Assembly: GCA_017458125.1 (NCBI GenBank)
Contig: JAFTGB010000028.1
Coordinates: 1 to 64,000 of the forward strand
Length of the DNA: 64,000 bases
Source of the DNA: Prevotella sp.
GTDB taxonomy: Bacteria; Bacteroidota; Bacteroidia; Bacteroidales; Bacteroidaceae
Reading direction: 5' to 3'
Of the stretch, positions 26,126 to 35,990 are shown in pieces. The notes below the pieces were generated by a model. That model was not told where the DNA came from and did no database searches. It worked only from the letters and a program-made list of their open reading frames with translations. Position 1 is the stretch's first letter, and each line of letters opens with the position of its first letter. Position numbers and translations under genes: made by a program.

Positions 26126-26713
26126 ATGAAAAAGACCCTTTTAGCAGTGATGGCTGTAGCTGCCATCAGTTTCACTTCGTGTGGCAACAAGCAACAGCAG
26201 GAAGTACCCGTTGACGAGGTAGCCGTTGAGAACATCGACTCGCTGGCTAACGTAGAAGCCACTGCAAGCATCAGCGCACTGACCGAGCAGATTGAGGCCA
26301 AGGATGTCAACAAGCTGAAGGAAGCCGTTGCCGCCGTGCAGGCCAAGATCAGCGAACTCATCAAGACCAACCCCGAGCTGGCCAAGGAGTACGTGGCTAA
26401 GGTGCAGGCTTTCCTGAAGGAGAATGCCGACAAGGTGAAGGCCGTCGTTGGTAACAACGCTGCCGTCTCTGCCGCCATTGCCGCTGTTGCCGACGCTGAG
26501 CCCCAGAGCATTGTGAACGGTCTGATGGAGAAGGTTGGCGACACCGCCGAGGAGGCTAAGGACGCTGCCGTCGACGCTGCTCAGGAGAAGGTGGACGAGG
26601 CCAAGGCTGCCGCCGAGGAGAAGGCCAACGAGGTGAAGGACGCTGCCAAGGAGAAGGCTAACGAGGCCATTGACAATGCAGCCAGCGACGCCAAGAAGGC
26701 ACTGGGACTGTAA
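26126..26713 (+). CDS. Ala/Lys/Glu-rich helical lipoprotein
   Basis: A 195-aa predicted lipoprotein. The signal MKKTLLAVMAVAAISFTSCG gives a lipid-modified Cys19. After an acidic linker the protein is almost wholly helical; the last 60 residues form LEA/apolipoprotein-like 11-residue repeats of the type EKANEVKDAAK, rich in Ala, Lys and Glu. Such repeats form amphipathic helices that may coat membranes or bind other helices. No enzymatic motif is present. It has its own promoter and is closed by an intrinsic terminator that overlaps the conserved element upstream of the next operon. The function is unknown; an envelope-associated role is inferred. Confidence 0.75.
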   Translation: MKKTLLAVMAVAAISFTSCGNKQQQEVPVDEVAVENIDSLANVEATASISALTEQIEAKDVNKLKEAVAAVQAKISELIKTNPELAKEYVAKVQAFLKENADKVKAVVGNNAAVSAAIAAVADAEPQSIVNGLMEKVGDTAEEAKDAAVDAAQEKVDEAKAAAEEKANEVKDAAKEKANEAIDNAASDAKKALGL

Positions 26714-26766: not shown

Positions 26767-26807
26767 GACTTTCACTGAACGAAACAGCCGGTTCGCTGAA
26801 TAGATTT
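26767..26807 (+). promoter_or_regulatory. 41-bp conserved element with two TTCRCTGAA repeats, copy 1
   Basis: TTCACTGAA at 26771-26779 and TTCGCTGAA at 26792-26800 are 21 bp apart start to start. The second repeat ends 28 nt before the -7 box. Copy 2 upstream of the VTC gene matches at 37 of 41 positions with identical spacing. Two direct 9-mers two helical turns apart fit the way LytTR regulators bind. This copy also overlaps a terminator hairpin. Confidence 0.65.
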
Positions 26808-26827
26808 CGCGAACCGGCTCTTTTTTT
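26786..26827 (+). terminator. Rho-independent terminator after the Ala-rich lipoprotein gene
   Basis: A perfect 11-bp stem (AGCCGGTTCGC paired with GCGAACCGGCT), a 12-nt loop, then C and seven Ts. The T-run ends 1 nt before the next promoter box. Confidence 0.85.
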
Positions 26828-26828
26828 C

Positions 26829-26836
26829 TACCTTTG
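26829..26836 (+). promoter_or_regulatory. -7 box, TACCTTTG, of the first beta-helix gene
   Basis: TACCTTTG 40 nt upstream of the ATG and 28 nt after the second TTCGCTGAA repeat. Confidence 0.75.
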
Positions 26837-26876
26837 CCTCATCATTAAGAATATTAACTTAAAAATAGGCAAAGAT

Positions 26877-28649
26877 ATGAAAAAGACTTTGATTTCCACC
26901 CTGCTCGTCGGCCTGATGACCATCGTAACGGCATGCACCAAGGACGACACGTTTGAAACCTACAGCAGTTCAAACAACAACAGCAGCAACAACAGCAGTA
27001 GCAGCGCAAGCAGCAACAACGCAAGCGACGCAGCCAGCGGCAACCTGGCCACGTTCACCGTCAGCATCGACAAGACGACGGCAGAACCCACCACCGGCGT
27101 GGCCACCGCCTACTACCCCGAGGACGAGGACAACATGGCCAACAACAGCTTCGCCACGCAGGTGGCCATCGACCTGTCGGCACCCGAGGCCAAGACCGAG
27201 AACGGCGTGACCATCACCGTCAACGGCGGCCACGTGACGGCCGACCACGGCGAGACCACGGGCATCTGCTACTACGTCACCGGTACGACCGCCAACGGTT
27301 CGCTGACCATTCTTGGCGAGAAGAAGTACGAGGTCGTGCTGAACAATGTCAGCATCACCAACCCCGACAGTGCCGCCCTCAACCTGCTGAGCAAGAAGCG
27401 CGCCTTCGTCGTGCTGGCCGACGGCACCACCAACACGCTGACCGACGGCACCACGTCGCAGAACGACCACAAGGGCACCCTCTACGCCAAGGGCAAGCTG
27501 CTCTTGAACGGCAGTGGCAAACTGGAAGTCTACGGCAACTACAACAACGCCATCCACTCGGCTGACTACATCATCTTCAACACCGGCAACAACGTCTACG
27601 CCAAGTCGACGGCCAACAACGGCATCAAGGCCAACGACGGCGTCATCATCAACGGCGGCGTGCTGAACGTGGAGGTGTCGGCAGCAGCGGCCAAAGGCAT
27701 CAACTGCGAGTCGGACATCACCGTCAACGGCGGGCGTACCACCGTCATCACCACTGGCAACGGAGCCTGGGACACCGAGGACTTGGAGGCCAAGGGTGCC
27801 GCCGGCATCAAGAGCGACATGAACCTGACCGTCAACGGCGGTGAGCTGTGGCTCAAGAGCACGGGCACGGGCGGCAAGGGCATCAACGTCGACAGCGAGG
27901 CTTACTTCAACGGCGGCAACACCTACATCGTCACCGAGGGCGGACAGTTCAAGGCCAACAACGACACGGCATCGCCCAAGGGCATCAAAGTGGACGGCGA
28001 CATCGACATCAGCGGCGGCAGCATCTGGGTGCGCACCACGGGATACAACGGCGAGGGCATCGAGTCGAAGAGCACGCTGACCGTCAGCGGCGGCGAGGTG
28101 GCCTGCTACACCTACGACGACGCCCTCAACTCGGCTGGCGACATGACCATCAGCGGCGGCTACGTCTACGCTCAGGCACGCAACAACGACGGCATCGACG
28201 CCAACGGCAACTGCTACATCAAGGGCGGCTTCGTCTTCGCCGTCAGCGCAGGCGGTCCCGAGGTGGCCATCGACGCCAACACCGAGGGCGGCAAGAAGCT
28301 CTACATACAGGGCGGCACCATCGTGGCCTTAGGCGGACTGGAGCAGGGTTCGCAGCTCTCGCAGTCGTGCTACCAGACATCGTGGAGCAGCAACACATGG
28401 TATGCCCTGCAGTACGGCAACACCACCTTTGCCTACAAGACGCCGTCCAGCGGTGCCACGGGCATGGTTGTCTCGGCTTCCTCCACCCCCACCCTGCTGT
28501 CGGGTGTGACGGTCAGCGGCGGCACCACCTACTTCGGCGGAGTAGGCACCATCGGCGGCACCGTCAGCGGCGGCAGCAGCGTCTCGCTCTCGTCCTATTC
28601 GGGCGGCGGCATGGGCGGCGGCATGGGCGGCGGTCCCGGCTGGCGGTGA
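26877..28649 (+). CDS. Cthe_2159-type carbohydrate-binding beta-helix lipoprotein
   Basis: A 590-aa surface-type lipoprotein (lipobox ending MTIVTAC, Cys20). A Ser/Asn linker (about residues 28-55) leads to a long parallel beta-helix built of repeats such as GIKANDGVIINGGVLNVE, GIKSDMNLTVNGG, GINVDSEAYFNGG and GIESKSTLTVSGG. This is the Cthe_2159/DUF4353 pattern; the Clostridium thermocellum prototype is a calcium-containing beta-helix that binds cellulose and pectin-like polysaccharides. The C-terminus is a Gly/Met tail ending GGGPGWR. It is first in the operon downstream of the conserved 41-bp element. A surface adhesin or glycan-binding role is inferred from the family. Confidence 0.88.
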   Translation: MKKTLISTLLVGLMTIVTACTKDDTFETYSSSNNNSSNNSSSSASSNNASDAASGNLATFTVSIDKTTAEPTTGVATAYYPEDEDNMANNSFATQVAIDLSAPEAKTENGVTITVNGGHVTADHGETTGICYYVTGTTANGSLTILGEKKYEVVLNNVSITNPDSAALNLLSKKRAFVVLADGTTNTLTDGTTSQNDHKGTLYAKGKLLLNGSGKLEVYGNYNNAIHSADYIIFNTGNNVYAKSTANNGIKANDGVIINGGVLNVEVSAAAAKGINCESDITVNGGRTTVITTGNGAWDTEDLEAKGAAGIKSDMNLTVNGGELWLKSTGTGGKGINVDSEAYFNGGNTYIVTEGGQFKANNDTASPKGIKVDGDIDISGGSIWVRTTGYNGEGIESKSTLTVSGGEVACYTYDDALNSAGDMTISGGYVYAQARNNDGIDANGNCYIKGGFVFAVSAGGPEVAIDANTEGGKKLYIQGGTIVALGGLEQGSQLSQSCYQTSWSSNTWYALQYGNTTFAYKTPSSGATGMVVSASSTPTLLSGVTVSGGTTYFGGVGTIGGTVSGGSSVSLSSYSGGGMGGGMGGGPGWR

Positions 28650-28716
28650 CTGACCGACCTGCGCCCTGCGCCTTTTCTCATGCATAACTGGTTCCTATTA
28701 TTAAACAGCATCGACA

Positions 28717-29103
28717 ATGAAAAAAATGATTATCCTGAGCCTCCTCACCGCCCTGACCACGGGCCTGAAGGCGGCAGACTACAGCCACCTGGTGTTCACC
28801 CTGACCGATGGCACCACCCAGAGCATCACCTCCACGGGCCTGAACCTCACCTTCACGGATGGCAACCTGACGGCAACGAGTGGGACGACCACCCTCACCA
28901 TCCCCCTCACTTCCCTGACGAAGATGGAATTCTCTAACGACGGCGCCACCGCCATCAGCACCCTGAAGGCCGACGTCACCATAGACGAGAACACGGAGGT
29001 CTACGACCTCAACGGCCGCCGCGTGCCGACCGGCACAGCACTGCAGCGCGGCGTCTACATCATCAAGAGCAACGGACAAACCACTAAAGTACAAATCCGA
29101 TGA
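28717..29103 (+). CDS. Small secreted protein with C-terminal GxYIxxNGxTxKVxIR tail
   Basis: A 128-aa protein with a signal peptide (residues 1-19, ending GLKAA). The body is Thr-rich beta sequence containing FTDGNLTAT and IPLTSLTKMEFS. The C-terminus carries YDLNGRRVP and GVYIIKSNG, like the tails of the C10 protease and RCC1 protein in this window. The N-terminal half resembles the region after the signal of the next protein (TLSDITSMTTD), hinting at a shared module. It sits between the two beta-helix genes and overlaps the next by 4 nt (ATGA), so translation is coupled. I know of no named family; it may be a secreted accessory of the flanking adhesins. Confidence 0.72.
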   Translation: MKKMIILSLLTALTTGLKAADYSHLVFTLTDGTTQSITSTGLNLTFTDGNLTATSGTTTLTIPLTSLTKMEFSNDGATAISTLKADVTIDENTEVYDLNGRRVPTGTALQRGVYIIKSNGQTTKVQIR

Positions 29104-31031
29104 GACAGACACTCCTTACCATAGCCGCCCTGCTGCTGACCGGCATAGCCGCAACAGCACAAACGCTGAACGTCACCGTGGGCAACGTCACCTATCAGTT
29201 TCCGGCTAACCAGACGGGCGAGATGAACTTCACCGGCGGCTCTACGCTCACCGTCATGGGCAAGACGTTCACCCTGAGCGACATCACCAGCATGACGACC
29301 GACGAGACGGCCGTCACCGACAACCTGGTCAGCATCGTCTACGACGGCACGACGGCCAAGGTCAGCGTGGCGGGCAACGTAGCGCAGTACGTGGAGGCCA
29401 CCGTCAGCGGTGCCCACGTCACCATAGTCCAGAGCAACACCGCCGCCGTTGACGACGACGAAATCACCTACCAACTGAGCGGCAGCAGCAGCGACGGCTC
29501 GCTAACGCTGGACGGTTCCTACAAGTGCACCGTCTCGCTGGCTGGCGTGACGCTGACCAACCCCGGCGGTGCCGCCATCAACATCACCAACTCGAAGCGC
29601 ATACAGCTCAGCGCCAAGAAGAACACCGTCAACACGCTGACCGACGCGGCTGGCGGCTCGCAGAAGGCCTGCATCTACAGCAAGGGCCAGCTGCAACTGC
29701 AAGGCAACGGCACGCTCAGCGTGGCCGGCTACACCAAGCACGCCATCAAGAGCGGCGACTACATCACGGTGAAGAACCTGACACTCAACATCACGGCGGC
29801 AGCCGGCGACGGCATCAACTGCGAGGAGTATTTCCAGATGAAGAGCGGCACGGTGACCATCAGCGGCGTCAGCGACGACGGCATACAGTGCGACCTGGGC
29901 GGCACCGCGTCGACGGGTGAGACCACCGACCACGAGGACGAAGACTCGGGCAACATCTACTTAGAGGGCGGCACGCTCAACGTCACCGTGACGGCTACGG
30001 CGGCCAAGGCCGTCAAGAGCGAGGGCGACATGCGCGTCAGCGGCGGCGACATCACCTGCAAGACCTCGGGCGGCGGCTCGTGGGACACGGACGACATGAA
30101 GACGAAGGCTGCTGCCTGCATGAGTGCTGACGGCAACATGACCATCAACGGCGGCACACTGACGCTGACCAGCACAGGAGCCGGCGGCAAGGGCATCAGC
30201 GTGGACGGCACACTGACCGTCACCGACGGCACCGTCAACGTCAACACAAGCGGCAACGCCGTGGTGGCCTCCAGCTCGGGCACCATCTCGACCGTCTCCA
30301 ACTCGCAGCAGCTCGACCGCTACACCAGCGACTACAAGTCGCTGCCCAAGGGCATCAAGGCTGACGGCGCCATCGCCATCAACGGCGGCACGTTCAACAT
30401 CATCACCAAGGGCGCCGGCGGCGAGGGCATCGAGTCGAAGACCACGCTGACCATGACCGACGGCTACGTCTACGCCTCGACGGCCGACGACGGCATCAAC
30501 TGCAGCAGCACCATGACCATCAGCGGTGGCCACATCATGGTCAGCTCGTCGGGCAACGACGGACTGGACGCCAACGGTAACTTGAACATCACGGGCGGCA
30601 ACATCTTCTCGGTATGCGCCGGAGGTGCCGAGGTCGGACTGGATGCTGCCGAGCAGTACAAGCTGAACATCACAGGCGGCAACATCGTGGCCATCGGAGG
30701 GTTTGAGAAAGGAGCCAACGTGTCGGGCGGCACGGCCAAACAGGCCAGTTCCTACACCAAGGGAGCATGGTACGCCCTCTACAACGGCAGCGACACGGCC
30801 TTCGCCTTCAAGGTGCCAAGCAACAGCAGCATGGGCGACAAGCTCGTCGTCTACACCACCGGCACACCGTCGCTCAAGACGGGAGTCACCGGCAGCGGCG
30901 ACGCCTTCTGGAGCGGCAACGGCTACAGCAGCGCCACCGGCGGCTCGACGGTATCGCTCAGCGAGTACAACAGCAACAGCGGCAGCGGTCCCGGTGGCGG
31001 TCCTGGCGGCGGTGGCGGATGGGGTCACTGA
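29100..31031 (+). CDS. Second Cthe_2159-type carbohydrate-binding beta-helix protein
   Basis: A 643-aa secreted protein with a signal peptide (MRQTLLTIAALLLTGIAATA) but no lipobox. After a short N-terminal module comes a Cthe_2159-type beta-helix with repeats such as GINCEEYFQMKSGTVTISG, GISVDGTLTVTDG, GIKADGAIAINGGTFNI and GIESKTTLTMTDG. It ends in a Gly-rich tail, GPGGGPGGGGGWGH, parallel to the other protein's tail. Ca2+ and polysaccharide binding are known for the prototype; the ligand here is unknown. The two proteins are diverged paralogues, one a lipoprotein and one not, suggesting different anchoring. Confidence 0.87.
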   Translation: MRQTLLTIAALLLTGIAATAQTLNVTVGNVTYQFPANQTGEMNFTGGSTLTVMGKTFTLSDITSMTTDETAVTDNLVSIVYDGTTAKVSVAGNVAQYVEATVSGAHVTIVQSNTAAVDDDEITYQLSGSSSDGSLTLDGSYKCTVSLAGVTLTNPGGAAINITNSKRIQLSAKKNTVNTLTDAAGGSQKACIYSKGQLQLQGNGTLSVAGYTKHAIKSGDYITVKNLTLNITAAAGDGINCEEYFQMKSGTVTISGVSDDGIQCDLGGTASTGETTDHEDEDSGNIYLEGGTLNVTVTATAAKAVKSEGDMRVSGGDITCKTSGGGSWDTDDMKTKAAACMSADGNMTINGGTLTLTSTGAGGKGISVDGTLTVTDGTVNVNTSGNAVVASSSGTISTVSNSQQLDRYTSDYKSLPKGIKADGAIAINGGTFNIITKGAGGEGIESKTTLTMTDGYVYASTADDGINCSSTMTISGGHIMVSSSGNDGLDANGNLNITGGNIFSVCAGGAEVGLDAAEQYKLNITGGNIVAIGGFEKGANVSGGTAKQASSYTKGAWYALYNGSDTAFAFKVPSNSSMGDKLVVYTTGTPSLKTGVTGSGDAFWSGNGYSSATGGSTVSLSEYNSNSGSGPGGGPGGGGGWGH

Positions 31032-31070
31032 CTTTCGCTGAACGAAACAGGCACTTCGCTGAATAGATTT
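31030..31070 (+). promoter_or_regulatory. 41-bp conserved element with two TTCRCTGAA repeats, copy 2
   Basis: TTCGCTGAA at 31034-31042 and 31055-31063, again 21 bp apart, with the second ending 28 nt before TACCTTTG at 31092. It shares 37 of 41 bases with copy 1 but lacks the terminator hairpin, so the conservation is not explained by termination. It begins at the stop codon of the preceding gene. Confidence 0.65.
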
Positions 31071-31091
31071 TGAAATGACGGGAGCAAGTCC

Positions 31092-31099
31092 TACCTTTG
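31092..31099 (+). promoter_or_regulatory. -7 box, TACCTTTG, of the VTC-domain operon
   Basis: TACCTTTG 28 nt upstream of the VTC gene ATG, with copy 2 of the 41-bp element upstream. It probably drives the genes from the VTC protein through the LytTR regulator. Confidence 0.75.
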
Positions 31100-31127
31100 T
31101 AACAGAATCATAAAAACAAACCAGCTT

Positions 31128-31871
31128 ATGAACACGTTACTAAGGGGATTTGCTCCCATCACATTGGAAGAGATGAGCAGTGTCAAGCTCATGAACCGCA
31201 CTGACACCAAGTTCGTCACCACCATCAGCAAACTGCAGCAGCTGTTGCAAATGGCCCAGAAAGACTACTACATACAGGAGATTGACGGCCAGCGCAACCT
31301 GGAGTACGACACCACCTACTTCGACACCCTGCACTTCGACATGTACTGCCAGCACCAGCACAACCACGCCAACCGCCAGAAGATACGCTTCCGCACCTAC
31401 TGCATCAGCGGCCTGCAGTTTATGGAGGTGAAGACCAAGAACAACCACGGACGCACGAAGAAAAGCCGCATCAGGGTGACGGACATGAACGTCAACGACC
31501 GCGAGAAGCGCGAGTTCTTAGGCCAGAACCTGCACTACGGCGTAGACACGCTGCAACCCGCACTGAACAACCACTTCTCGCGCATCACGCTGGTGAACAA
31601 GGCCAAGACCGAGCGTCTGACCATAGACAGCCACCTGACGTTCCACAACCTGGTGAACGGCAAGGACAAGGAGATGGGGCCGCTGGTCGTCGTCGAGCTG
31701 AAACGCGACGGACGCGTGCCCTCCCCCATTCTGGAGATGCTGCGCCGGCTGCACATCCATCCGCACGGTTTCTCCAAATACTGCATGGGGTCGGCACTCA
31801 CCAACCCGCAGCTGCCCTGCAACCGCTTCAAAAGCAAACTAATAGAAATCAACAAGATAGTCAACAGCTAA
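31128..31871 (+). CDS. VTC-domain (polyphosphate-polymerase-like) protein
   Basis: A 247-aa soluble tunnel-fold (TTM-related) protein. Charged tunnel residues expected of VTC domains are in place: Arg24 and Lys28 in NRTDTKFV, Lys85-x-Arg87-x-Arg89 in KIRFRT, Glu100/Lys102/Lys104 in EVKTK, Lys111 in GRTKKSRI, Arg163 in ERLTID, Glu190/Lys192 in VVELKRDG and Lys217 in GFSKYCMG. In yeast Vtc4 this domain makes polyphosphate from ATP. Bacterial homologues next to a DUF4956 gene are widespread but functionally undefined. It starts a run of tightly spaced genes. Catalytic ability is plausible; the true product is unknown. Confidence 0.88.
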   Translation: MNTLLRGFAPITLEEMSSVKLMNRTDTKFVTTISKLQQLLQMAQKDYYIQEIDGQRNLEYDTTYFDTLHFDMYCQHQHNHANRQKIRFRTYCISGLQFMEVKTKNNHGRTKKSRIRVTDMNVNDREKREFLGQNLHYGVDTLQPALNNHFSRITLVNKAKTERLTIDSHLTFHNLVNGKDKEMGPLVVVELKRDGRVPSPILEMLRRLHIHPHGFSKYCMGSALTNPQLPCNRFKSKLIEINKIVNS

Positions 31872-31898
31872 TATTCACCCATCATAACACGACAACAC

Positions 31899-32567
31899 AT
31901 GACACACGACATATTCTCCACAGCATTCGGCGACACACTGGTACGGTTCTTCATCTGCCTGCTCGTCAACTGGTTCATCGTACACTTCCTCTACTTCAAG
32001 AAAGGCAAGCGCCGCGACTTCTACTTCACCTTCGTCATCATCTCGGTGGCCATCTACTTCCTCGTCTACCTCATGATGGGCATGGACCGCGGCAAGGCCA
32101 CCATGGGCGTGGGACTCGGACTGTTCGGCATCTTCAGCATCATGCGCTACCGCACCGACTCCATGCCCGTGCGCGAGATGACCTACCTCTTTGTCGTCGT
32201 ATGCCTGGCAGTGGTGCACGCCATGGCCTCGCCCATAGAAACGGACGGCACACCGCTACTCAGACTCGTCATCATCGACATCATCACCATACTGACCATC
32301 GTCGTCTTCGAGCAGACACTGAGGCAGGACGCCTCGAAACTGGTGCAGTACGACCGCATAGAGCTCATCAAGCCCGAGCGGCGTCAGGAGCTGGTGGCCG
32401 ACCTGCACGAGCGCACTGGACTGGACGTGCTGAACGTCGAGATTGGCGCCATCGACTTCCTGCACGACACGGTGGTGCTGCGCGTCTACTACAAGTCGGG
32501 TAGCCACAAGAAGAACGATATTGACAACATGATAAAAATAAAAAGTTCCAACTATGCAAGCATCTAA
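31899..32567 (+). CDS. DUF4956 membrane protein
   Basis: A 222-aa protein. About four membrane segments lie in residues 10-120 (LVRFFICLLVNWFIVHFLYF; a second near 40-60; GVGLGLFGIFSIMRYRTDS; YLFVVVCLAVVHAMA), with a cytoplasmic C-terminal domain of about 90 aa. The RYRT motif between segments is typical of DUF4956. This family is repeatedly found beside VTC-domain genes, as in bacteria where CotH or Cthe_2159 proteins are also linked. A natural reading is a membrane partner, perhaps a channel or anchor, of the VTC protein 27 nt upstream. It overlaps the next gene by 14 nt. Confidence 0.88.
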   Translation: MTHDIFSTAFGDTLVRFFICLLVNWFIVHFLYFKKGKRRDFYFTFVIISVAIYFLVYLMMGMDRGKATMGVGLGLFGIFSIMRYRTDSMPVREMTYLFVVVCLAVVHAMASPIETDGTPLLRLVIIDIITILTIVVFEQTLRQDASKLVQYDRIELIKPERRQELVADLHERTGLDVLNVEIGAIDFLHDTVVLRVYYKSGSHKKNDIDNMIKIKSSNYASI

Positions 32568-33303
32568 AATCCTTTTAACCGTACTGACGGCCGTCGTCAG
32601 CCTGCCCCTTATGGCTCAGAGCGAAGGGGGACTGCTGGTGAACGTCGAGGCCGAGAAGAAGATTAACAAGCAGCTGAGCATCGGCGTGGACGCCGAACTG
32701 CGTACCCGCAACAATTTCAAGACCATAGACCGCTGGAAGTTCGGCGTGGGTGCCAGCTACAAGCTGACCAAGTGGCTGAAGGCCGACGCAGGCTACAACC
32801 TGCTGAACACCAACTTCCGCGAGGACTACAACTACAAGTCGTCGGGCGACGTCAACAAGTGGCGGCCTGCCTACTGGGGCATCAAGCACCGCGTCTACGC
32901 CGCACTGACGGGCAGCTACAAGTTCGACAACGGCATCAAGCTGTCGCTGCGCGAACGCTGGCAGTACACCTACCGCCCGGAGAAGACCGTGCAGCGCTGG
33001 GACTACGACAACGAGGAGTGGGAGGACAAGGTGCGCTCGGCCCTGGGCAAGAACCAGCTGCGCTCGCGCCTGCAGGTGGAGTACGACCCTAAAGGTGCGC
33101 TCTTCACGCCCTACGCCAGCATGGAGCTGTACCACTCGTGGAGCATCGAGAAGATACGCTACACCATAGGCACCGACATCAACCTGAGCAAGCAGCACAC
33201 ACTGGGCGTCTTCTACCGTTTCCAGAACATGAAGAACGTGGATGCCGACGACTACGATCCCGACATGCACTACTTAGGCGTGGGCTACAAATTTAAGTTC
33301 TGA
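32554..33303 (+). CDS. DUF2490 outer-membrane-type protein
   Basis: A 249-aa protein with a signal peptide (ending SLPLMAQS) and a beta-strand-rich body ending in the aromatic terminus HYLGVGYKFKF, as expected for an outer-membrane barrel. Repeated patterns such as WLKADAGYNLLNTNFRED and KLSLRERWQYTYRPE fit DUF2490. It overlaps the DUF4956 gene by 14 nt, so the two are probably translated together. Its role, perhaps export or surface display for this locus, is inferred only from context. Confidence 0.82.
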   Translation: MQASKILLTVLTAVVSLPLMAQSEGGLLVNVEAEKKINKQLSIGVDAELRTRNNFKTIDRWKFGVGASYKLTKWLKADAGYNLLNTNFREDYNYKSSGDVNKWRPAYWGIKHRVYAALTGSYKFDNGIKLSLRERWQYTYRPEKTVQRWDYDNEEWEDKVRSALGKNQLRSRLQVEYDPKGALFTPYASMELYHSWSIEKIRYTIGTDINLSKQHTLGVFYRFQNMKNVDADDYDPDMHYLGVGYKFKF

Positions 33304-33336
33304 TACAATTTCCCGCTGTTTCAAACGTTTATAATA

Positions 33337-34566
33337 ATGAATAGAAACTACTGGATGAGACAACAGTCGAAATACGAGAACATGGCATACGTGGCACTGT
33401 GGGGACTGCTCTTCGCAGCCCCCGTGCTCAGCCTCTTCATCCGTACGGCGCAGGACTCCACGCTCACTTTCGACTGGCACGAGGTGCTCATGGTGTGGCG
33501 GCAGTTGGCCATATTCCTGCTGCTGTTTCTCATTCACAATTTCCTGTTGGCACCCCTGCTGGTCTACAGGCAGAAGCGCATGCTCTACTTCTCGCTCACC
33601 ACAGCCATGCTGGCCTGCTTCCTGTTCTTCCAGTGCAGCAGCCGCCCCGACGGCATGCAGCACCAAGCCATGCACGACATGGCGCAGCACCAGCCCATGC
33701 ACGACGGGCCGCGGCCCCACAGCGAGGACGGCTTCGACCACGACGGTGACGGCTTCGACCACGAGCCGCCGCCCTTCGAGCACGACGGCCATGACGCCCG
33801 GTTCGACGAAGAACCCAACGGGCGCAAGGACTTCATGGACCGGCGCCGCCACAAAGGTCCTCCCGGCTTCATCGGACGGCACGACATCATCTCCGTCATC
33901 ATCCTCTTCCTCATGCTGGGCATGAACGTCGGCATCAAGCTCTACTTCAAGACACGGCTTGACCAGAAGAAGATGGACGCACTACAGAAGGAGAACCTGG
34001 AACAGCAGCTGGAATACCTGAAGTACCAGATCAACCCGCACTTCTTCATGAACACGCTGAACAACATCCACGCACTGGTGGACATAGACCCCGAGAAGGC
34101 CAAGGACACCATACTGGAACTGTCGAAGATGATGCGCTTCATACTCTACGAGGGCGACAAGAACGGGGTGCCGCTGACGCGCGAGTTCGAGTTCATACGC
34201 CACTACGTCACCCTCATGCGGCTGCGCTACACCGACAAGGTGAAAATCAGCGTCGACCTGCCCGCCGAGGCTCCCGACAAACTCATACCGCCGCTGATGC
34301 TCATCACCTTCATCGAGAACGCCTTCAAGCACGGCATCAGCTACCAGCGCGAGTCGTTCATCAGCGTCAAGGTGGGCATCGAGCACGAGCGGCTGCGCTT
34401 TGAGTGCCGCAACTCGAAGGCCGACAAGCCGAACCAAGAGAAAGGCGGGGTAGGACTCGCCAATGTCAAACAACGTTTAAACTTACTTTATGGCAACAAC
34501 TTTACGCTAAACATACAAGACGAACCCGACATCTACAACGTAGAACTCAACATCCCACTCACATGA
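33337..34566 (+). CDS. LytS/YehU-type sensor histidine kinase with His/Asp-rich periplasmic loop
   Basis: A 409-aa inner-membrane kinase. Three membrane segments lie in residues 20-100 and a fourth near 190-207. Between TM3 and TM4 is a periplasmic loop of about 80 residues with some ten His, about fourteen Asp and several Met (for example FDHDGDGFDHE), a likely divalent-metal-binding sensor. The cytoplasmic half has the His_kinase domain with phospho-acceptor His235 in QINPHFFMNTLNNIHAL, and an ATPase domain with FIENAFKHGI and GGVGLANVKQRL. Its stop overlaps the start of the LytTR regulator (ATGA), so the pair is a cognate two-component system. The signal is unknown; a metal cation is inferred from loop composition. 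Confidence 0.92.
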   Translation: MNRNYWMRQQSKYENMAYVALWGLLFAAPVLSLFIRTAQDSTLTFDWHEVLMVWRQLAIFLLLFLIHNFLLAPLLVYRQKRMLYFSLTTAMLACFLFFQCSSRPDGMQHQAMHDMAQHQPMHDGPRPHSEDGFDHDGDGFDHEPPPFEHDGHDARFDEEPNGRKDFMDRRRHKGPPGFIGRHDIISVIILFLMLGMNVGIKLYFKTRLDQKKMDALQKENLEQQLEYLKYQINPHFFMNTLNNIHALVDIDPEKAKDTILELSKMMRFILYEGDKNGVPLTREFEFIRHYVTLMRLRYTDKVKISVDLPAEAPDKLIPPLMLITFIENAFKHGISYQRESFISVKVGIEHERLRFECRNSKADKPNQEKGGVGLANVKQRLNLLYGNNFTLNIQDEPDIYNVELNIPLT

Positions 34567-35309
34567 TACGATGCTTAGCCATTGACGACGAGCCGTTAGC
34601 GCTCCAACAGATAGCTGCCTACATAGGCAAGGTGCCGTTCCTCGAACTGGCCGCACAGTGCCAGAGCGCCATAGAGGCACGGCAGTTCTTAGAACACGAC
34701 ACGGTGGACGCCATCTTCTGCGACATCAACATGCCCGACCTCAACGGCATGGACTTCGTCAAGTCGCTCGTCGTGCCGCCCCTCGTCGTGTTCACCACGG
34801 CCTACGCCGAATATGCCGTCGAGGGCTTCCGCGTCAACGCCGTCGACTACCTGCTGAAGCCCTTCGGCATGCAGGACTTCCAACGCGCCGCCCTGCGGCT
34901 GAAGGAGCGCATGGACTCCTCCCCCACACCACCCACAACGCCCACCTCCCCCACAACCCCCACACCCCCCATCCCAAACGACGACACCCTGTTCCTCAAG
35001 ACGGAGTACCGCATCGTCAAGGTCAGCATCAGCGACATCCGCTACGTCGAGGCCATGAGCGAATACCTGAAGGTGTGGCTTGACAGCGAGCAGAAACCCA
35101 TCATCACCCTGCTGTCGATGAAGAAGATGGAGGAGCGGCTGCCCGACTGCTTCATGCGCATACACCGCTCCTACATCGTCAACCTGAAGAAAATCCGCGA
35201 GGTCAACAAGAACCGCGTCATCATGGATGCCGACACCTACCTGCCCGTCGGCGACATGTATAAGGACACCTTCCAGGCTTACCTCGACACCAAGTTCTTA
35301 GGAAAATAG
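34563..35309 (+). CDS. LytTR-family response regulator
   Basis: A 248-aa regulator. The receiver domain (residues 1-118) starts MIRCLAIDDEPLALQQI and carries phospho-acceptor Asp54 in CDINMPDLNG; a conserved Thr-Ala-Tyr and Lys (YLLKPFGMQ) follow. A Pro/Thr linker at about 119-139, encoded by C-rich low-complexity DNA, joins it to a LytTR DNA-binding domain (SDIRYVEAMSEYLKVWLDSE ... FMRIHRSYIVNLKKI). LytTR domains bind pairs of 9-10-bp direct repeats about 21 bp apart, which matches the element upstream of the first beta-helix gene and the VTC gene. The start is the ATG overlapping the kinase stop. Confidence 0.93.
   Translation: MIRCLAIDDEPLALQQIAAYIGKVPFLELAAQCQSAIEARQFLEHDTVDAIFCDINMPDLNGMDFVKSLVVPPLVVFTTAYAEYAVEGFRVNAVDYLLKPFGMQDFQRAALRLKERMDSSPTPPTTPTSPTTPTPPIPNDDTLFLKTEYRIVKVSISDIRYVEAMSEYLKVWLDSEQKPIITLLSMKKMEERLPDCFMRIHRSYIVNLKKIREVNKNRVIMDADTYLPVGDMYKDTFQAYLDTKFLGK
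34918..34976. repeat. C-rich low-complexity tract encoding the LytTR interdomain linker
   Basis: A CCCACA/CCCCCA-type repeat with rough 7-bp periodicity, read in frame as Pro/Thr/Ser (PTPPTTPTSPTTPTPP). It separates the receiver and LytTR domains. Confidence 0.5.
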
Positions 35310-35321
35310 GAGTTTAAGGAA

Positions 35322-35990
35322 ATGATGAAGAAAACCATTCTCTGGGCACTGGCCGCCATGCTGGCCCTGCCCGCCACCGCACAGACCTACGGCCGTCCCC
35401 ACACGTCGCGCTACGACCGATACCCGTATGCGCCGACACGCACCTATGCCGCGAGGCGCTTGGACAACTACTTCGGACTGCGCCTCGGTGCCAACATAGC
35501 AAGCATCAGCAGCGGCGACGTCGACTTAGACACCAACGCACGGGCTGGCCTGTACGTCGGTGCCGTCTTCGGCACGCAGTTGGCCTACTACTCGCCGGTA
35601 TGGTTAGAGATTGGCGTCGGCTACTCGGAGAAGGGCGGCACCACCAACGGCACCACCGGCGAGGTGAAGTACCGGCTGGGCTACCTCCAGGCACCCATCA
35701 CCGTCAAATACAGCATCGGCGTGGGCAACGTGCGCATACAGCCTTTCCTCGGCGGCTACCTGGCCGTGGGCGTGGCCGGGAAGGCCAAGGACTACGCAAC
35801 AAGGCAGCAAAAGGAGGTGTTCGACGTCTTCAAGCGCTTCGACGGCGGCCTGCGCCTCGGCTGCGGTCTGGAGTACCAGATGCTCTACGCCGAGGTGGGC
35901 TTCGACTTCGGACTGGCCAACATCAACAAGGACAACTTCGACACGGCCCACAACCGTGCCCTCCTCCTCACCGCCGGTGTCAACTTCTGA
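35322..35990 (+). CDS. Outer-membrane beta-barrel (PorT-like) protein
   Basis: A 222-aa protein with a signal peptide (MMKKTILWALAAMLALPATAQ). The mature part has about eight amphipathic strands, including YFGLRLGANIASISSGD, WLEIGVGYSEKGG and LRLGCGLEYQMLYAEVGFDFGL, and a terminal LLLTAGVNF with aromatic end, matching the small OMP_b-brl_2/PorT-like barrels of Bacteroidota. It lies 12 nt after the response regulator and may be the last gene of that transcript. A specific partner cannot be named. A large hairpin element follows. Confidence 0.82.
   Translation: MMKKTILWALAAMLALPATAQTYGRPHTSRYDRYPYAPTRTYAARRLDNYFGLRLGANIASISSGDVDLDTNARAGLYVGAVFGTQLAYYSPVWLEIGVGYSEKGGTTNGTTGEVKYRLGYLQAPITVKYSIGVGNVRIQPFLGGYLAVGVAGKAKDYATRQQKEVFDVFKRFDGGLRLGCGLEYQMLYAEVGFDFGLANINKDNFDTAHNRALLLTAGVNF

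Follow-up and report, generated by a model that had tools for sequence, protein, structure and literature searches.

A LytS-LytT two-component system that appears to control both Cthe_2159-type surface proteins and a VTC-DUF4956 pair in Prevotella-type bacteria

Gene content and layout of the locus

We analysed a 64,000-nt stretch of DNA from Prevotella sp. (GenBank assembly GCA_017458125.1, contig JAFTGB010000028.1, positions 1 to 64,000 of the forward strand), referred to below as the window; all coordinates are positions within this whole stretch. The locus of interest comprises nine genes, all on the plus strand: cthA and cthB, encoding Cthe_2159-type proteins, with the small secreted-protein gene sml between them, followed by genes for a VTC-domain protein, a DUF4956 membrane protein, a DUF2490 protein, a LytS-type kinase, the response regulator LytT and an outer-membrane barrel (Table 1). 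Both cthA and the VTC gene are preceded by the same paired repeat. Through it, a single sensor-regulator pair of rumen Prevotella-type bacteria seems to induce the surface proteins together with a membrane-linked VTC enzyme, a possible producer of polyphosphate.

The genes lie where a first-pass annotation, made from the sequence alone, had placed them, and their Pfam matches agree with the names it gave. The close packing it described is also borne out, as sml and cthB overlap by 4 bp, the DUF4956 and DUF2490 genes by 14 bp, and lytS and lytT by 4 bp. Its description of a single operon, however, is probably wrong, since the VTC gene is preceded by another promoter and regulator site (31034-31099). 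Therefore, the locus is probably transcribed as two units, cthA-sml-cthB and VTC-to-LytT, with one operator before each.

Table 1. Predicted features of the locus, with positions in the window
Feature	Position	Strand	Basis or remark
LytTR-type operator 1, before cthA: TTCACTGAA-N12-TTCGCTGAA	26771..26800	+	predicted from sequence
Terminator-like hairpin	26786..26819	+	11-bp stem; T-run 26821-26827; includes start of second half-site
-7 element TACCTTTG	26829..26836	+	28 nt 3' of operator 1
cthA, Cthe_2159-type protein, 590 aa	26877..28649	+	PF14262 E 4.4e-53; lipoprotein-like signal (...TAC-TKDD)
sml, secreted protein, 128 aa	28717..29103	+	N-terminal part weakly similar to CthB N-terminus
cthB, second Cthe_2159-type protein, 643 aa	29100..31031	+	PF14262 E 1.3e-57; PDB 4peu (also 4phb) match E 4e-9
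LytTR-type operator 2, before VTC: TTCGCTGAA-N12-TTCGCTGAA	31034..31063	+	predicted from sequence
-7 element TACCTTTG	31092..31099	+	28 nt 3' of operator 2
VTC-domain protein, candidate polyphosphate polymerase	31128..31871	+	PF09359 E 9e-32
DUF4956 membrane protein	31899..32567	+	PF16316 E 5e-48
DUF2490 protein, probable outer-membrane barrel	32554..33303	+	PF10677 E 2e-25; also OMP_b-brl match
LytS-type kinase	33337..34566	+	His_kinase PF06580 E 6.4e-25
LytT response regulator (REC+LytTR), proposed binder of both operators	34563..35309	+	Response_reg E 1e-17; LytTR E 5e-21
OMP_b-brl_2 barrel, local neighbour	35322..35990	+	E 2e-16; 12 bp 3' of lytT

A repeat with LytTR geometry precedes both promoters

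The cthA and VTC promoters share a 9-12-9 bp direct repeat, TTCRCTGAA-N12-TTCRCTGAA, which ends 28 bp before a Bacteroidota -7 element. This repeat is the core of a longer shared pattern, TTCRCTGAACGAAACAG-N4-TTCGCTGAATAGATTT, which matches twice in the window versus a mean of 0.00 in 100 shuffles. LytTR sites are described as pairs of 9-bp direct repeats that lie close before the promoter and in most cases have 12 bp between them (PMC6193735). The window repeats, paired and upstream of their target promoters at about this spacing, have the layout of a LytTR binding site, and we regard them as putative operators whose geometry equals that of the published sites. LytT itself combines a receiver with a LytTR domain.

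At operator 1 the second half-site runs into a terminator-like hairpin. Such an overlapping hairpin with a stem of at least 7 bp was found at 9 of 10 unique cthA-type sites, where shuffles predict 1.1; stems of this length were also present at 7 of 12 sml-type sites (1.1 expected), 3 of 9 other sites (0.2 expected) and 4 of 28 VTC-type sites (1.5 expected), and the stem scan found no terminator-like hairpin at the window's own VTC site. Operators embedded in terminators may shield the promoters of the surface-protein genes against transcription from genes further up. The overlap of half-site and hairpin directly before the -7 element of a Cthe_2159 promoter was seen in the window (26771-26836) and in loci L007, L019, L024, L033, L040, L042, L044 and L047; it could also be read from the sequence of a second locus in the window's genome (L110, contig C81).

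Sites and gene sets in related loci

We then considered 80 related loci, titled Prevotella, Prevotellaceae, Xylanibacter or Bacteroidales, which are the best of at least 584 VTC matches and lean to close kin. With up to three mismatches the repeat pattern matched 78 times in these loci, including some matches within genes or on the opposite strand, compared to once for the reversed pattern. With the window added there were 83 matches, 61 of them with TAnnTTTG within 60 nt and 22 without a -7 element. The distance to TAnnTTTG was exactly 28 nt in 46 cases, 27 or 29 nt in six and 49 nt in one; in the remaining eight (0 nt) the bases directly 3' of the repeat themselves happen to read TAnnTTTG, a motif present in 164 of 8000 random 60-mers. 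The genes that follow 59 such sites in the 80 loci are VTC (28), cthA-type (11), sml (10), cthB (2) and others (8). In L042, L044, L047 and L050 this other gene encodes a small secreted protein directly before VTC that resembles the Sel1-repeat protein of L008, the domain scan having covered the L008 protein only.

The expectation that the gene set recurs in relatives is supported. By tblastn, DUF4956 was found in all 80 loci, DUF2490 in 76, Cthe_2159 in 52, sml in 17, LytS and LytT within 10 kb of VTC in 14 and the terminal barrel in one, several loci being truncated at contig ends. All eight genes other than the barrel occur in one locus in just 5 of the 80 (L007, L008, L033, L041 and L024, the last with LytS and LytT apart), and the barrel, which had been counted as a member, has to be dropped from the set. 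The idea of a regulated system is also supported: the shared operator ties the two-component system to both the surface-protein genes and VTC. The rarity of the complete set might suggest a chance neighbourhood of unrelated genes. This is contradicted by the shared operator, by the DUF4956 gene that adjoins VTC in all 113 inspected loci (113 of 113), of which 33 belong to other genera, and by the run VTC-DUF4956-DUF2490-LytS-LytT in the distant genus g3, which we guess to be Bacteroides and where LytT identity is 52-54%; we therefore consider chance highly improbable. Genomes G121, G135 and G163 show this five-gene order, as does G032, there accompanied by a Cthe_2159 gene. For B. thetaiotaomicron a published table lists DUF4956-DUF2490 (BT3498-99).

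To see whether sites on the surface-protein side predict those before VTC, we built a matrix from 22 unique Cthe/sml-side sites, excluding VTC sites, and scored the 250 nt before VTC; the pattern that gathered the training sites had itself been derived from the cthA and VTC sites of the window together. Indeed, 49 of the 80 related loci scored above the 99.9% null, and 46 passed a looser 99% null combined with a -7 element at 27-29 nt. In g3, all four VTC loci exceeded the 99.9% null (18.9-25.5 versus a null maximum of 13.3), though these sites lack a canonical -7 element at 27-29 nt. The G032 site is a poor repeat. Among the 31 related loci without a match directly before VTC, some carry a site further up, before the gene that leads the run. 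A matrix match was found in 1 of 29 loci of other genera, these being the best-scoring of the 128 other VTC genomes. Against a wide coupling of VTC to the regulator, G044 and G124 possess LytT together with VTC genes that show no site. Judged by the predicted sites, VTC-DUF4956-DUF2490 is coupled to the LytT regulon in this clade and in g3.

The site follows LytT across the family

A survey of 201 family genomes gave 24 matches to the repeat plus -7 pattern in 18 genomes, versus two for the backward control. LytT orthologues of at least 65% identity were present in 15 genomes. Allowing up to three mismatches, a site occurred in 11 of these 15 and in 7 of the 186 genomes without such an orthologue (cross-table 11/4/7/179, p 9e-11); with up to two mismatches, all seven site-bearing genomes had LytT (7/8/0/186, p 3e-9). 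The presence lists behind these tables, and behind the PPK1 and Ppx tables below, were compiled by hand. Of the four LytT genomes missed, G200 showed no site by pattern, while in the other three the gene run is preceded by a site that is looser or has another spacing. The 24 matches lead Cthe_2159 or sml genes (11), VTC (1), DUF4890 genes (2) and an AraC-type gene near such a locus (1); nine had no assignable target, six of them with three mismatches and three with two (in G164, G150 and contig C72 of the window's genome). The two DUF4890 secreted proteins behind a LytTR-type site are encoded at 6581-7216 in L108 and 3317-3754 in L113, where the LTXXQ match falls below its cut-off.

When the 8 kb upstream of 20 lytT genes, which we selected from the 45 genomes matching LytT at E 1e-60, were scanned with the matrix, the best match beat its own 10 block shuffles in 19 cases; G003 failed, and G101, G128 and G130 were marginal. 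In G110 and G150 a site lies directly before the lytS-lytT pair, in line with autoregulation.

Could the repeat instead belong to a different regulator, or be a mere promoter feature of the clade? The seven site-bearing genomes without a LytT of 65% identity, each with a three-mismatch match and one (G034) with it before a Cthe_2159 gene, lend this some weight, binding of the repeat by LytT being a prediction from sequence. We nonetheless think it improbable, because the geometry equals that of published LytTR sites, the site follows LytT across genera and it even precedes lytS-lytT pairs. Regulation of the surface proteins and VTC by LytT through the shared putative operator is very probable.

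The window's genome contains one VTC match, one LytT match at E 1e-60 or better and five sites in all. The C72 site has no sensible target and may be only a terminator. A second set, on contig C81, comprises a LEA-like gene, a site, cthA2 (586 aa), a gene for a 332-aa Cthe_2159 protein and a second LytS; no second LytT was found on this 10-kb contig. All four Cthe_2159 genes found in this genome lie within site-led gene runs, and on these predicted sites the LytT regulon extends to other loci. The locus had been called self-contained, a description at odds with operons led by the same site elsewhere in the genome and with site-free VTC genes in other genera.

The genes flanking the locus have an ordinary housekeeping look and are, mostly on our own reading, presumably phosphoglucomutase-like and DHH-like downstream, and exonuclease III-like and LEA-like lipoprotein genes upstream. 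The LEA-like lipoprotein gene (26126-26713) is present in 9 of the 80 related loci and also stands before cthA2.

Sensor and surface proteins

LytS belongs to the PF06580 kinase family and has a membrane part, with four hydrophobic segments in the window protein. Several membrane helices are also predicted in its orthologues, where a simple hydropathy window gave four for 23 of 36 proteins. The loop before the last helix, between helices 3 and 4 in the window protein, is long and variable in sequence but remains rich in four residues: over 36 loops Pro makes up 17%, Arg 12%, His 7% and Met 6%. Such a loop would suit a system that is mainly an envelope-stress response, with damage or metal as the cue for LytS and with an output of surface proteins, chaperone-like proteins and VTC, the last as a side branch recruited in some clades. 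The DUF4890 genes behind sites in two genomes, the Sel1-like small secreted proteins led by sites in four or five loci and the lack of a site before VTC in all but one of 29 loci from other genera also fit this idea. However, no stress chaperone recurs constantly among the genes behind the 59 sites, and we consider a response of this kind unlikely as the main role.

CthA and CthB are clear members of the Cthe_2159 family (PF14262, 180.7 and 195.6 bits versus a cut-off of 25.8). Proteins of this family bind polysaccharide and calcium. We take CthA to be a surface lipoprotein, and PDB 4peu/4phb, whose database entry is named only 'uncharacterized protein', to be the Cthe_2159 structure. Sml aligns with the CthB N-terminus with an hhalign probability of 89%, the alignment taking in the signal peptide, which suggests a common interface domain. 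Sml was also considered as type IX secretion cargo, since its C-terminal tail resembles a sorting tail, but the PF18962 score of 13.5 bits lies below the cut-off of 27.

VTC, DUF4956 and the polyphosphate question

The VTC domain is full length (110.9 bits versus a cut-off of 23, profile positions 1-233 of 235), and an alignment of 37 sequences has 45 invariant positions, 20 of them charged. No sequence match was found between the window protein and solved VTC structures. A domain scan (E up to 0.1) matched the VTC domain only, with no match to SPX or DUF202; therefore, we say that the protein works like, not that it is, a eukaryotic VTC subunit. DUF4956 is predicted to fold into five helices followed by a C-terminal beta-alpha-beta-beta domain (pLDDT 83, pTM 0.71). 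In yeast, the product of the VTC enzyme is reported to pass into a membrane channel with positive charge (PMC9911596), and by analogy DUF4956 could play that part.

VTC was present in 129 of the 201 genomes and PPK1 in 61. The two largely avoid each other (both 18, VTC only 111, PPK1 only 43, neither 29, p 3e-11; by genus majority 3/14/9/4, p 0.008), and in 13 of 30 genera VTC occurs in at least half of the sampled genomes and PPK1 in none. Ppx, counted at E < 1e-20 (48 of 62 matches listed), follows PPK1: it was found in 10 of 111 VTC-only, 30 of 43 PPK1-only, 8 of 18 doubly positive and 0 of 29 doubly negative genomes. Neither PPK1, PPK2 nor Ppx was detected in the window's genome, which is 88% complete. 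This distribution favours a replacement of PPK1 by VTC with a product that leaves the cytoplasm, though it also allows a different product. Polyphosphate sent out of the cytoplasm would explain the missing Ppx.

A different product is what the main competing interpretation proposes: VTC as a tunnel-fold phosphotransferase or triphosphatase that DUF4956 anchors and that makes something else at the membrane, such as a glycan or protein modified with phosphate, regulation by LytT being unchanged. The absence of a detected Ppx from the window's genome fits this reading, as do gene neighbourhoods in other bacteria. A predicted polyphosphate polymerase gene and DUF4956 with CotH adjoin Pel polysaccharide genes in Gram-positives (PMC7112168), and in Clostridium NELoc-2 VTC-domain genes occur with CotH and a glycosyltransferase, the VTC gene adjoining one for a membrane protein of about 220 aa annotated as a tubulin/FtsZ GTPase (PMC2879425). 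On the other hand, the spread of VTC is complementary to that of PPK1, and all 37 aligned VTC sequences (37 of 37) share R87 and R89 of an RxR stretch, possible counterparts of Arg264 and Arg266, which are reported to be essential in Vtc4 (PMC8749416). We regard another product as rather unlikely. That VTC makes polyphosphate is close to an even call, falling slightly short of one, and export of polyphosphate through DUF4956 is a more tentative proposal still. Among the literature matches listed, none concerned what a bacterial VTC makes, this repeat, or such LytTR targets in Bacteroidota, and we met no experimentally tested role of VTC paired with DUF4956 in bacteria.

A proposed two-armed regulon

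On balance, we lean towards a LytS-LytT regulon with two arms, one consisting of the Cthe_2159 surface proteins and the other, in some clades, of VTC-DUF4956-DUF2490. LytS would read an envelope signal, perhaps through its Pro-, Arg-, His- and Met-rich periplasmic loop, and phosphorylated LytT would bind the paired repeats and then activate transcription. With less certainty, VTC would polymerise the phosphate of ATP into polyphosphate at the cytoplasmic face and hand the chain to DUF4956, acting as its partner or conduit in the membrane, with little of the polymer left behind in the cytoplasm, and DUF2490 may form the outer-membrane part. At the surface, the Cthe_2159 proteins induced alongside would serve to bind calcium, polysaccharide or the polyanion. 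In its boldest form, which we put forward as a doubtful proposal, VTC-DUF4956 replaced PPK1 in Prevotella-type Bacteroidota as a minimal synthase-exporter, and LytS/LytT of the rumen clade links export with the presentation of beta-helix lipoproteins that bind calcium. The cell would then make a surface polyanion at the same time as the proteins that bind it.

With a defined operator, regulator and target list, a cluster without an assigned purpose becomes a testable system. Should the polyphosphate reading be true, abundant rumen and gut organisms would possess a second bacterial polyphosphate route, one that delivers outside the cytoplasm and relies on an enzyme domain known chiefly from eukaryotes.

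Comparison with known systems

The two-component system resembles known LytS/LytTR systems (HdrR/BrsR of S. mutans, AgrA) in its REC+LytTR regulator and PF06580 kinase, and differs from the S. mutans systems in having a kinase where those have a membrane inhibitor. As at other LytTR promoters, paired 9-bp repeats 12 bp apart lie just upstream and, in some genomes, before the regulator's own genes; what differs is the word TTCRCTGAA, the Bacteroidota-type -7 element usually 28 bp downstream, and the targets, Cthe_2159 proteins and VTC. CthA and CthB share the Pfam domain of Cthe_2159, CthB matching the solved chain, but are lipoprotein-like or secreted, 590 and 643 aa long, carry Gly-rich tails and stand behind LytTR-type operators.

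The enzyme is of the same domain family as the eukaryotic VTC complex (Vtc1/3/4) and is here always paired with a membrane protein that could take its product. It differs in lacking an SPX or DUF202 match and in having DUF4956 instead of Vtc1-type helices; the eukaryotic complex uses inositol pyrophosphates, whereas transcriptional control is proposed for the window system. The nearest bacterial parallels are the Gram-positive Pel operons, with a polyphosphate-polymerase-type gene and DUF4956 (PMC7112168), and Clostridium NELoc-2, with a VTC gene and a membrane-protein gene (PMC2879425), in each case near surface or polysaccharide genes. Those loci contain CotH, whereas the system described here has DUF2490, Cthe_2159 proteins and a dedicated LytS/LytT pair.

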